Position numbers and translations under genes: made by a program
Notes under the pieces: generated by a model
What the model was told of the DNA's origin: nothing
What the model saw: the letters and a program-made list of their open reading frames with translations, nothing else
The model's database searches: none
In this document: one piece after another, positions 13,830-57,782 of the stretch
Numbering within the stretch: the first letter of the stretch is position 1
Layout: each line of letters begins with the position of its first letter
Source of the DNA: an uncultured Alphaproteobacteria bacterium
GTDB lineage: Bacteria; Pseudomonadota; Alphaproteobacteria; UBA8366; JADFVY01
Length of the DNA: 64,000 bases
Assembly (NCBI GenBank): GCA_947259105.1
Contig: CAMYKU010000001.1
Location: forward strand, 1-64,000
Direction of reading: 5' to 3'

Positions 13830-14645
13830 TCAGGTCTCGAGTCCCAGCACATCGCGCATCGAGTACAGCCCCGGCTTGCGCCCCTTCGTCCACAGCGCGG
13901 CGCGCACCGCGCCGGCGGCGAAGAGCTGGCGGCTGGAGGCCCTGTGGGTGAGCTCGATGCGCTCGCCGGCGCCGGCGAAGACCACCGTGTGGTCGCCGAC
14001 CACGTCGCCGCCGCGCAGCGTCGCGAAGCCGATCTCGCCGCGCGGCCGGGCCCCGGTGTGGCCCTCCCGCGCCAGCCGCGCCGCGGTGTCGAGGTCGACA
14101 TTGCGGCCGGACGCCGCCGCCCGGCCGAGCCCCAGCGCCGTGCCGGACGGCGCATCGACCTTGTGGCGGTGATGCATCTCGAGGATCTCGATGTCATAGG
14201 ATTCGTCCAGCGTGCGGGCGACCTGCTCGACCAGCGCCATCAGCAGGGTCACGCCGGCGCTCATGTTCGGGGCGACGACGACCGGCACGTGGCGCGCGGC
14301 GCCGCGCAGCGCCTCCCTGTGGCTGTCGGTGAGGCCCGTGGTGCCGATCACCATGGCGGCGCCGGCCTGGGCCGCGAGCTCCGCATGCATCACCGTCGCA
14401 TCGGGCGCGGTGAAGTCGATCACCGCGTCGACGTGGGCAATCATCGCCGCCGCATCGTCGCCGACCGTAACGCCAACCTCGCCGATCCCGGCCAGCATCC
14501 CGGCATCCTGGCCGATCGCCTCGCTGCCCGGCCGTTCGGTCGCGCCGGCCAGCGCGCAGTCCACGCTCTCACCGGCCTGGCGCACCAGCATCCGGCCCAT
14601 GCGCCCGGCGGCGCCGACGACGCCGATTTTCATCTTTCTGGCCAT
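13830..14645 (-). CDS. dapB: 4-hydroxy-tetrahydrodipicolinate reductase
   Basis: KIGVVGAAGRMGRMLVRQ, EMHHRHKVDAPSGTAL. Confidence 0.97.
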   Translation of the reverse strand: MARKMKIGVVGAAGRMGRMLVRQAGESVDCALAGATERPGSEAIGQDAGMLAGIGEVGVTVGDDAAAMIAHVDAVIDFTAPDATVMHAELAAQAGAAMVIGTTGLTDSHREALRGAARHVPVVVAPNMSAGVTLLMALVEQVARTLDESYDIEILEMHHRHKVDAPSGTALGLGRAAASGRNVDLDTAARLAREGHTGARPRGEIGFATLRGGDVVGDHTVVFAGAGERIELTHRASSRQLFAAGAVRAALWTKGRKPGLYSMRDVLGLET

Positions 14646-29976: not shown

Positions 29977-30314
29977 GGCCGCATATATGGCGCGGCGCGG
30001 CCGGGGTGGGAAGCCGATTCTGCACATCGCACCCGCGGCAGGGCATAAATTTGCCCCACATGTTGTGGATAAGTTGGTGGATAATACCGCATGTGGCGTT
30101 AAAGCCGCTCCAATGTCCGCTGGTGCGTCCTGCCGGAATCCGGCCTTGGGGTGCAGCGGGATCGCCGGAGGGGAATCAGCGAGTCCCGCACGGACTCGAA
30201 TTTCCCGGCGTCGGCACACGCAAAAAGAGTCATTGCGCGCGATTCGTGCTGGCGTTCTGCTTTCGTTCCGGTTTATGCTGGCGCGACGCAGGAACAGGGA
30301 AGGGGCCGAACCCC

Positions 30315-31835
30315 ATGGTCGCGCGCGTCGGCACGGTGGCGTTTCAGGGCATCGATACGCTGGGCATCGACGTCCAGGTGCAGATGGCCGGCGGGCTGCC
30401 CGCCTTCACCGTGGTCGGCCTGCCCGACAAGGCGGTGGGCGAAAGCCGCGAGCGGGTGCGCTCCGCCCTCGGCGCGATGGGCCTCGCCCTGCCGCCCAAG
30501 CGGATCACCGTCAACCTCTCGCCCGCCGACGTGCTCAAGGAGGGCAGCCATTTCGACCTGCCGATCGCGCTCGGCCTGCTGGTCGCGATGGGGGTGCTGC
30601 CGGCCGACGAGCTGGCGCGCTATACGGTGCTGGGGGAGCTTGCGCTCGACGGCGCGATCGCCCCGGTGGCCGGCGTGCTGCCCGCGGCGATCGCGGCCGC
30701 CGCCGAATCCCGCGGCATCATCTGCCCGGCGGCGACCGGCGGCGAGGCGGCCTGGGCCGACGGCATCGAGGTGCTGGCGCCGGCGACGCTGCTGGCGCTG
30801 ATCAACCACTTCAAGGGCAGCCAGGTGCTCACGCCGCCGGAGCCGCAGCTCGCCGAGGACGGCATGGCGACGCCCGATCTCGCCGACATCAAGGGGCAGG
30901 AGACCGCCAAGCGGGCGCTCGAGCTCTGCGCCGCCGGCGCCCACAACCTCCTGATGCTGGGCCCGCCGGGGGCCGGCAAGTCGATGCTGGCGCAGCGCCT
31001 GCCCGGCATCCTCCCCTCCCTCGACCCGCGCGAGGCGCTGGAGGTCAGCATGATCCATTCGGTCGCCGGCATGCTGGACGGCGGCCGGCTGTCGCGCCGG
31101 CGGCCGTTCCGCGACCCGCACCATTCGGCGTCGCTCGCCGCCATGGTCGGCGGCGGCACGCGCGCACGGCCCGGCGAGGTCAGCCTCGCGCATAATGGCG
31201 TGCTGTTCCTCGACGAGTTGCCCGAGTTCCAGCGCCCGACGCTGGAGGCGCTGCGCCAGCCGGTGGAGACCGGCCGGGCCGTGGTCGCCCGCGCCAACGC
31301 CCATGTCACCTATCCGGCCAGGTTCCAGCTCGTCGCGGCGATGAACCCGTGCCGCTGCGGCCATCTCGACGACCCGGCGATCGCCTGCGCGCGGGCGCCG
31401 CGCTGCGCCCAGGACTACCAGGCGAAGATCTCCGGCCCGCTGTTCGACCGCATCGACCTGCATGTCGAGGTGCCGGCGGTCAGCCCCGCCGACCTCTCGC
31501 TGCCGCCGCCGGCCGAGGGTTCGGACCAGGTGCGCGCGCGGGTGGCCGCCGCCCGCGATGTGCAGGCGGCGCGCTACGCCGGCCTGCCGGAGGGCAGCCG
31601 CATCCGCACCAACGCCGAGGCCGACGGCAGGCTGCTGGAAGAGGTCGCGGCCCCCGACGCGCCGGGCCGCAAGCTGCTGGCCGAGGCGACCGACGCCCTG
31701 CGCCTGACCGCCCGCGGCTACCACCGGGTGCTGCGCGTGGCGCGGACGCTGGCGGATCTCGACGGGGCGGCGGACGTGCGCCGCATCCACATCGCCGAGG
31801 CGCTGAGCTACCGCCGCGTGGCGCCGGGACGGTGA
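30315..31835 (+). CDS. comM: YifB/ComM family Mg chelatase-like AAA ATPase
   Basis: [54 protein letters not shown]. Confidence 0.97.
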
Positions 31836-54878: not shown

Positions 54879-55489
54879 TCTTCGATCACCCCGTGTCCGC
54901 GAAGAAAGTCGAGCAACGGCAACAGCGGCAGCCCGACGATGGTGAAATGGTCCCCCTCGATATGGCTGAACAGTTGTGCGCCAGGACCTTCCAGCTGGTA
55001 GGCGCCCACCGAATCGCAGGCGGCGGCGCCGATCCTGTTCAAATAGGAGTCAAGAAACGTGTCGCTAAACGCCCGCATGTTTAAGCGTGCGCGTGCGATG
55101 TGGTGCCACAGGATCAGGCCGTCGCGTACGACACAGACCGCGGTGACGAGGTCGTGGGTTCGACCGCGCAACGCCAACAACGTTTGGCGCGCCTGCACCA
55201 GATCCGCCGGCTTGTCGAACCACGCCGCACCGCATTCAAGCATCTGGTCGGCACCGATGACCAGCGCACCCGGATGGCGGCCGCCGGCCTGCTGCGCCTT
55301 CATGGCGGCAAGCGCTTCCGCCGTCTCGGCGGCGCCGGCGCCTTGTGCACGCATCGCAGTCTTTACCGCGTCCTCGTCGACCGCCGGCGGGTCCACGGTG
55401 ACCGGTACGCCGGCGGCTTCAAGCATCGCGGCGCGGAACCGGCTGCCGGAGGCGAGCACGACGGCCGGCGGTGGCGTGTCAGTGTTCAC
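54875..55489 (-). CDS. maf: Maf-family nucleotide pyrophosphatase
   Basis: VVLASGSRFRAAMLEAAGVPV, GADQMLE; GTG start. Confidence 0.93.
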   Translation of the reverse strand: MNTDTPPPAVVLASGSRFRAAMLEAAGVPVTVDPPAVDEDAVKTAMRAQGAGAAETAEALAAMKAQQAGGRHPGALVIGADQMLECGAAWFDKPADLVQARQTLLALRGRTHDLVTAVCVVRDGLILWHHIARARLNMRAFSDTFLDSYLNRIGAAACDSVGAYQLEGPGAQLFSHIEGDHFTIVGLPLLPLLDFLRGHGVIEE

Positions 55490-56312
55490 TGGCCTCCGCT
55501 CCCCGGCGTTCGTAGAGCTGCAGAATCGCCGCCGCGGATTCCTCGATGGACCGTCGCGTGACGTCGATCACCGGCCAGTTGTGCCTGCTGAACAGCTTGC
55601 GTGCCGCCGCGACCTCTTCGCGTACCGCCTCGGGGTCAACATAGTCGGTATCCGGGTCCTGGGCGAGCATCTGCAACCGGTTCCGGCGCACCTGCACGAG
55701 CCGGGCCGGATCCTTGGTCAGGCCGATCACGAACGGCTCTCCCGGGCGGTTCTGGAACAGCTTGAGTTCCGCCGGCACGGGGACGCCTGGTACGATCGGG
55801 ATATTGGCGGCCTTGATGCCTCGGTTCGCAAGATAGATGCAGGTCGGGGTTTTCGACGTTCGCGACACGCCGACCAGGATGATCTCGGCCTCCTTGAGTG
55901 ACTGCACCAGCTGGCCGTCATCGTGGTGCAGGGCGAAGGTCATGGCATCGATGCGGCCGAAATATTCCGCGTCCATGATGTGCTGACGGCCCGGCAGCCC
56001 GCGTGCCTTGACGCCAAGGAAATTTCCGAGGGATGCGATCACCGGGTCCAGTACGGCTATGCAGGGGACCTGCAGGCGCCGGCATCCCTCCAGGAGGGCC
56101 GTTCTGAGATCGGCGTTTACGATCGTGAACATGACCACGCCGGGATCCTTCTCGAGTCGGGCCAGCAGTTTTTCGATCTGGCCGTGCGTGCGGACCAGCG
56201 ACCAGTTGTGTTCGATCGGTTCCACCCCCTCGAACTGCACGAGGCAGGCGCGCGCAACACTATGGATGGTTTCTCCTGTTGCATCAGATACGAGATGTAA
56301 GTGGAATTTCAT
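55479..56312 (-). CDS. ppsR: Pyruvate, phosphate dikinase/PEP synthase regulatory protein (DUF299)
   Basis: HLHLVSDATGETIHSVARA, LVGVSRTSKTPTCIYLANRG. Confidence 0.97.
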   Translation of the reverse strand: MKFHLHLVSDATGETIHSVARACLVQFEGVEPIEHNWSLVRTHGQIEKLLARLEKDPGVVMFTIVNADLRTALLEGCRRLQVPCIAVLDPVIASLGNFLGVKARGLPGRQHIMDAEYFGRIDAMTFALHHDDGQLVQSLKEAEIILVGVSRTSKTPTCIYLANRGIKAANIPIVPGVPVPAELKLFQNRPGEPFVIGLTKDPARLVQVRRNRLQMLAQDPDTDYVDPEAVREEVAAARKLFSRHNWPVIDVTRRSIEESAAAILQLYERRGAEASEH

Positions 56313-56735
56313 AACGATAGCCTGTCCTGTAACTCAATTTTGTAAGGTACTGGATTAAATGTGGATAAGCAGGGGCATCGCCGGCGGGACGTGATTCGGT
56401 TCAGCCTCGCGCAGCATTCGTACTTCGGTTCTCCACCTGTCGACGGTTTTATTCACATTGCGCGAATCCCACGGTCAAGTACATCATGACCTTCGTTATC
56501 CCCGGTATCCCATCATGGGGTATGGCAACGCCCATAGGCAAAAAGGGCAGTTATCCATAGCCCGGTCCACAAGCGCCTGGTTGCCTTGCAGGTCTCTGGA
56601 TATCTCGCTGGATTTTATTAATCCCCGTTACCCCCGCCACCACTACCACCACAACCCTTTTCTTTTTATATTAAAGAATAGTATTGAAGGCACATACGCA
56701 CTGAAGTCCTCCAAAAAAACGAGTAAGCCGAAACC
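56313..56735. other. oriC: Putative chromosomal replication origin (oriC), ppsR/hemE intergenic region
   Basis: 423 bp gap with tgtggataa (56360-56368), ttattcaca (56449-56457), ttatccata (56551-56559); AT-rich ttttattaa and ctttttatattaaagaatagtatt tracts; genes diverge on either side; hemE/DUF299 synteny. Confidence 0.82.
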
Positions 56736-57782
56736 GTGCCAAAATCCGGTCAGAAATCCCTGCTTCGCGCTCTGAGAGGCGAAGCGATCACGCCGCCGCC
56801 GGTCTGGCTGATGCGACAGGCCGGACGTTACCTGCCCGAGTACCGCGATGTGCGGCGCAAGGCGGGCGGATTCCTCGAGCTCTGCTATACCCCCGAAATG
56901 GCCGTCGAAGTGACCTTACAGCCGATCCGGCGATACGGGTTCGATGCGGCGATCCTGTTCTCGGATATTCTGGTCATCCCGGATGGGCTTGGCCAGCCGG
57001 TGCGCTTCGAAGAGGGGGAGGGTCCCAAACTCGATCCAATTCGCGATACCGCGGGTTTGGCGCAACTGAGCGACGAGCGGATGCACGATCGCCTTGCACC
57101 GGTGTACGAAACCGTGCGGCGCCTTTCGCAGGCCTTGCCGCAGGAGGTGACGCTGATCGGCTTTGCCGGGGCGCCGTGGACCGTCGCGACCTACATGGTG
57201 GAAGGCGGCAGCAGCCGGGATTTCGCCGTGACCCGCGCTTGGAGCCTCAGCGATCCGGAGGGGTTCGGAAGGCTGATCGATATTGTGACGGCTGCGACGG
57301 CAGACTACCTGTGCCGGCAGATCGAGGCGGGTGCGGAAGCCATACAGCTGTTCGACAGCTGGGCCGGCGTGTTGCCGGACGATGCGTTTCAGCGCTGGGT
57401 TATCGAGCCGAATGCACGTATCGTGTCGGCACTGAAAGAACGCTTCCCGGATATTCCGGTGATCGGCTTTCCCCGTGGTGCCGGGGTGCTTTACGAGCGC
57501 TATATCGAACAGACGGCGGTCGACGCGGTCAGTCTCGATACGACGGTGCCGTTGTCCTGGGCGGCGGAGCGGCTGCAGCCGAAGGTGACGGTGCAGGGCA
57601 ACCTCGACCCGCAGGTATTGCTTGCCGGCGGCGCGGCGCTGGAACACCGCGCACGGGAGATCGTGGCGACGCTTGGGCATGGGCCGTTCATATTCAATCT
57701 CGGGCACGGGATCATCAAGGAAACGCCGCCGGAGAACGTTGCACAACTCCTTGATATCATTCGTGGTAGCGAAAAGAATTGA
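56736..57782 (+). CDS. hemE: Uroporphyrinogen decarboxylase
   Basis: [23 protein letters not shown] start. Confidence 0.98.

Follow-up and report, generated by a model that had tools for sequence, protein, structure and literature searches.

The ppsR-hemE intergenic region

The DNA analysed here, a 64,000-nucleotide stretch that we call the window, opens the 130-kb contig C1 of a draft assembly (4.2 Mb, 121 contigs, 88.8% complete). It carries ppsR and hemE as a divergent pair, and the original prediction had placed a putative replication origin in the 423-bp gap between them. Both boundary genes and the gap were confirmed (PpsR, E=1.9e-96; HemE, E=2.2e-129), and so was the gene order claimed around them, with maf-aroE-coaE-dnaQ on the left and hemE-hemH-rho on the right. 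The left side also holds secB, fxsA, a Tim44-like gene and mltA; past the right edge of the window lie mnmE, mnmG, rsmG, a parA-like gene and parB. The gap has a GC content of 49%, compared with ~67% in its surroundings, and its length and raised AT content agree with the AT-rich intergenic region of 200-1000 bp listed among the features of alphaproteobacterial origins (PMC1914354). A search of Rfam gave zero matches across 50-64 kb of the window. The features of the locus are:

55479-56312, minus strand: ppsR (DUF299/COG1806), boundary gene
56313-56735, no strand: proposed oriC, the divergent ppsR-hemE intergenic region of 423 bp (gene pair, DnaA boxes, relatives)
56360-56368, minus strand: exact DnaA box TTATCCACA, read as TGTGGATAA on the forward strand (sequence scan and relatives)
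56449-56457, plus strand: DnaA box TTATTCACA (sequence scan)
56551-56559, plus strand: weak DnaA box TTATCCATA, 1 mismatch (sequence scan)
56619-56627, plus strand: weak DnaA box TAATCCCCG, 3 mismatches, ATCCCC core
56628-56636, plus strand: second weak box TTACCCCCG, in tandem with TAATCCCCG, with counterparts in relatives
56637-56654, plus strand: DnaA-trio-like repeat CCA CCA CTA CCA CCA CAA, six in-phase CNA triplets
56655-56689, plus strand: putative unwinding element, the AT-rich tract CCCTTTTCTTTTTATATTAAAGAATAGTATTGAAG, with strong conservation in the three closest relatives (L009-L011)
56736-57782, plus strand: hemE, boundary gene

For comparison we used a set of related loci and genomes. 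The closest named relative, which is also the closest complete one, is a Rhodospirillales MAG assembled as a single-contig chromosome (CP070634.1, here G001); its PpsR is 89% identical to that of the window. A second assembly, G002, is listed as belonging to the same genus and matches at the coordinates of G001, and we took the two to be the same genome. For the bin96 relative, a literature search found no paper.

DnaA boxes are concentrated in the gap

All three DnaA boxes that had been claimed (TGTGGATAA, TTATTCACA and TTATCCATA) were found in place. Strict matches to TTATNCACA occur 21 times assembly-wide and three times in the window (0.19 expected); two of these three fall inside the gap, where 0.01 would be expected from first-order Markov sequences. 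In the whole assembly, at least two strict boxes within 100 bp are found nowhere else but in this gap and at one site on contig C32. Counted against an origin, good boxes in the gap number just two or three. The same enrichment was seen across 67 ppsR-hemE gaps, which contain 39 strict boxes (0.8 expected) and 195 when one mismatch is allowed (21 expected), although kinship among many of these loci means that the counts are not independent events. Expressed as density, the strict boxes reach 1.33/kb in the gaps and 0.013/kb in GC-matched windows of the same loci, a difference of ~100-fold. Position is partly conserved too: 19 of the 67 gaps have a minus-strand box at a distance of 36-66 nt from the start of ppsR, where uniform placement predicts 7.7, and of the three closest relatives two keep the box at 56360 in strict form and one in degenerate form.

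Elsewhere in the window, at 30064-30084, there is a close pair of minus-strand boxes (TTATCCACA and TTATCCACC, 12 bp apart), in the gap before an ORF that starts near 30316 and reads like a putative YifB/ComM-type ATPase.

Weak boxes, triplets and an AT-rich tract beside hemE

On the hemE side of the gap, the two weak tandem boxes run directly into the triplet repeat and the AT-rich tract. The AT-rich tract proposed at ~56657-56685 was borne out: the 30-mer at 56658-56687 (87% AT) is the most AT-rich of the 64-kb window, as is the 50-mer there. In the window and in each of its three closest relatives, a block running from CCTTTTCTTTTTATAT to AAAGAATAGTATTGAA deviates from consensus at 1-4 positions and lies 45-47 nt before hemE; the tract at 56655-56689 may additionally hold the hemE promoter.

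This layout of tandem weak boxes, triplets and AT tract beside hemE is common to many relatives. The ATCCCC core of the first weak box recurs 5' of the triplets in many of them, and the second weak box has its counterpart in TTATCCACG in L027, followed directly by CTACTACAACAACAA, and in TTATCCACA in L036, where it precedes CTACCACTA. L025 carries five CTA triplets, pure CTACTACTACTACTA. Ahead of the repeat, the best-matching box shows 3 mismatches in the window and 0-1 in the relatives L027, L036 and L038. Of the 67 gaps, 14 contain runs of at least four CNA triplets, compared with 1 among 1746 GC-matched control windows, an enrichment that is descriptive and no blind test, since the pattern was picked after viewing these sequences. 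No such runs were found in the rhizobial and several other gaps among the 67, so that the feature is confined to some members of the class.

The element can be compared with the bacterial origin unwinding system (BUS), which consists of tandem DnaA boxes, a spacer and DnaA-trios with the consensus 3'-GAT-5' (PMC8287927). The order from weak tandem boxes through triplet repeat to AT-rich tract is the same, and so is the orientation of the repeat (complement 3'-GNT-5'), but the consensus middle adenine is missing from five of the six triplets. Published search rules for the BUS demand a DnaA box no more than 16 bp from the trios and with no more than 2 mismatches, together with at least three 3'-NAN-5' triplets (PMC8287927), whereas at the window repeat the nearest box has 3 mismatches and a single triplet is of the NAN type. 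The hemE-side element thus resembles a BUS module in sequence layout, short of proven membership. One tentative reading, to which we give somewhat worse than even odds, is that the DnaA-trio of this family has drifted to CNA triplets mostly lacking the middle adenine while position, phase and weak tandem boxes were kept, and that DnaA could open the origin on this deviant trio; the existence of deviant trio motifs has been suspected before (PMC8287927).

Comparison with known hemE-type origins

The experimentally mapped Cori of Caulobacter crescentus lies between hemE (CC3763) and CC0001, and CC0001 belongs to COG1806/DUF299 (PMC1914354); the original prediction had named this DUF299/ppsR identity correctly. 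Cori and the window gap share their boundary genes, DnaA boxes and an AT-rich region (PMC1914354). They differ in that the window gap contains neither a CtrA site (no TTAA-N7-TTAA, allowing at most 1 mismatch) nor an exact match to the IHF consensus WATCAANNNNTTR, the two checks that had been suggested, the latter made for the exact consensus only. CtrA sites are missing in some alphaproteobacterial origins (PMC1914354), and since they are variable in the group and not required, their absence is no bar to the Cori-type class. The predicted origins of Rickettsia, Wolbachia, Ehrlichia and Anaplasma have a hemE boundary, a length of 383-620 bp and a few DnaA boxes (PMC1914354). The window gap is like them in its hemE boundary, in its 423 bp, which fall within this range, and in its few boxes, and some of them likewise have no CtrA sites; it is unlike them in that IHF sites have been reported there (PMC1914354) and none was found here, and unlike Wolbachia in its second boundary gene, which in that genus is COG1253 instead of COG1806 (PMC1914354). 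Among 80 alphaproteobacterial loci, 66 hold the divergent ppsR-hemE pair with a gap of 318-639 bp.

Origin markers around the gap

Chromosomal origins usually have parS and parAB nearby. Exact matches to the parS motif, GTTTCACGTGAAAC, occur only twice in the assembly (C1:66419-66432 and C1:68407-68420), 10-12 kb to the right of the gap: one lies between mnmE and mnmG and the other inside the start of rsmG, with parA-parB nearby. G001 has a single exact parS, 7 kb from its own ppsR-hemE gap.

Cumulative GC skew, which had been suggested as a check, does turn locally near 56 kb, but the window has a lower minimum near 41 kb, so its skew decides nothing. Chromosome 1 of Agrobacterium vitis, a distant complete genome, served as a positive control: there the gap coincides with the negative-to-positive switch of GC skew, ties for the best score among 160 tested positions (permutation p<0.001) and beats dnaA. 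In G001, stretches of 20 kb, at first 40 and then 80 (40% of the chromosome), were tested for GC skew, TA skew, polar oligomers, gene strand and GC3 skew. With 80 stretches no skew domain appeared at the gap, its raw-skew rank was 59 of 160, and no position was significant on raw skew; the gap had come out as the best raw-skew position with 40 stretches, a result lost with 80 and discarded as noise. On gene-strand bias the gap ranked first (p=0.056), while one gene-level measure favours 3.45 Mb (p=0.013, a value that ignores correlation between neighbouring genes).

A dif-like site, CATAATGTATATTATGGAAA, lies at G001:C1:2406460-2406483, and an identical copy is found in the source genome (G000:C2:28016-28039). 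In G001 it is 1.1 Mb from the gap, giving unequal arms of ~1.1 and 2.8 Mb (~29:71). The dnaA gene of G001 (C1:3155797-3157119) is 1.85 Mb from the gap, 48% of the chromosome; two Parvibaculum-like genomes show a distance of roughly 120 kb. A rearrangement or a misassembly of this MAG might explain the odd placement of both dif and dnaA. The weak skew of G001 and its unexpected dif and dnaA positions are the main restraint on our confidence in the origin.

Alternative interpretations

These same G001 data would suit a gap that is a mere double promoter for ppsR and hemE, with DnaA acting as a transcription regulator and replication starting elsewhere. The gap is indeed divergent, and its AT-rich block ends ~47 nt ahead of hemE, where a promoter might be placed. 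We nevertheless regard this as improbable: no sigma-70-like promoter was found in 56250-56800 (alphaproteobacterial promoters can deviate from the sigma-70 consensus), the box density, the CNA triplets by the AT tract, the proximity of parS and the Cori precedent exceed what promoters need, and in A. vitis it is the ppsR-hemE gap that lies at the skew switch.

Least probable of all is that the true origin is the C32 array (about 14258-14331), even though it has more boxes, at 21-23 bp spacing, and with three strict boxes within 53 bp is the densest cluster of the assembly: an exact-motif scan of the assembly found no parS near it, the orthologous array in G001 is degenerate and lies some 105 kb away from the dif-like site, and the array adjoins a conserved ~165-bp segment, of which G001 has two copies (2.51 Mb and 71 kb) and which in G005 has other gene surroundings. 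Because it is part of a repeated element that changes its gene surroundings, the array is a poor oriC candidate and was rejected as such. The segment is found in four of seven genomes of the family; outside it, one of 37 others gave only a 26-bp match. Copies of this family-restricted repeated element lie at:

L003 9008-9335 (G000:C32 about 14007-14334)
L089 2187-2515
L137 745-1065
L134 1-260
G006:C92 7801-7961

The arms at the ends of the segment are GGAGGCG/CGCCTCC, and in the 71-kb copy of G001 they are GAAGGCG/CGCCTTC, a paired change. Of the five copies, the four whose downstream DNA was examined (C32, both of G001, and G005) are followed ~100-150 bp after the segment by a DnaA-like box array. 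As RNA, the C32 segment matched no Rfam family, and its folding was hardly better than that of shuffled sequences (z -0.8 to -1.4); a short ORF equipped with an AAAGGAGG ribosome-binding site is another possible reading. A role of the array in DnaA titration or regulation is possible.

A probable hemE/COG1806-type chromosomal origin

Altogether, we interpret the gap at 56313-56735 as the chromosomal oriC of a Rhodospirillales-related alphaproteobacterium, of the Caulobacter hemE/COG1806 type, with a probability of about 0.87. The originally predicted origin is supported by the Cori precedent, the conserved gene pair and gap, the enrichment of DnaA boxes, the nearby parS sites and the skew of A. 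vitis. From the sequence elements, their conservation and the location of parS, all directly observed, we infer DnaA binding, melting and initiation at the gap. DnaA would occupy the three stronger boxes (56360, 56449 and 56551) and load onto the CNA triplets (56637-56654) by way of the weak tandem pair at 56619-56636, and would then open the AT-rich tract (56655-56689) beside hemE; ParB would then segregate the two sister origins at the parS sites 10-12 kb away.

The locus adds one more case to a known type of origin, and its unwinding element, with triplets that depart from the textbook sequence, may be a new variant. It places oriC for a little-known, apparently uncultured alphaproteobacterial family, and a hemE/ppsR origin can be recognised here without CtrA sites or usable GC skew. 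The conserved triplet element by the AT tract may offer a natural series of DnaA-trio variants for probing how strict the unwinding code is: if the deviant trio is real, relatives ranging from pure CTACTACTACTACTA to CCACCACTACCACCACAA, taken as a series, would let one test which base is read by DnaA.
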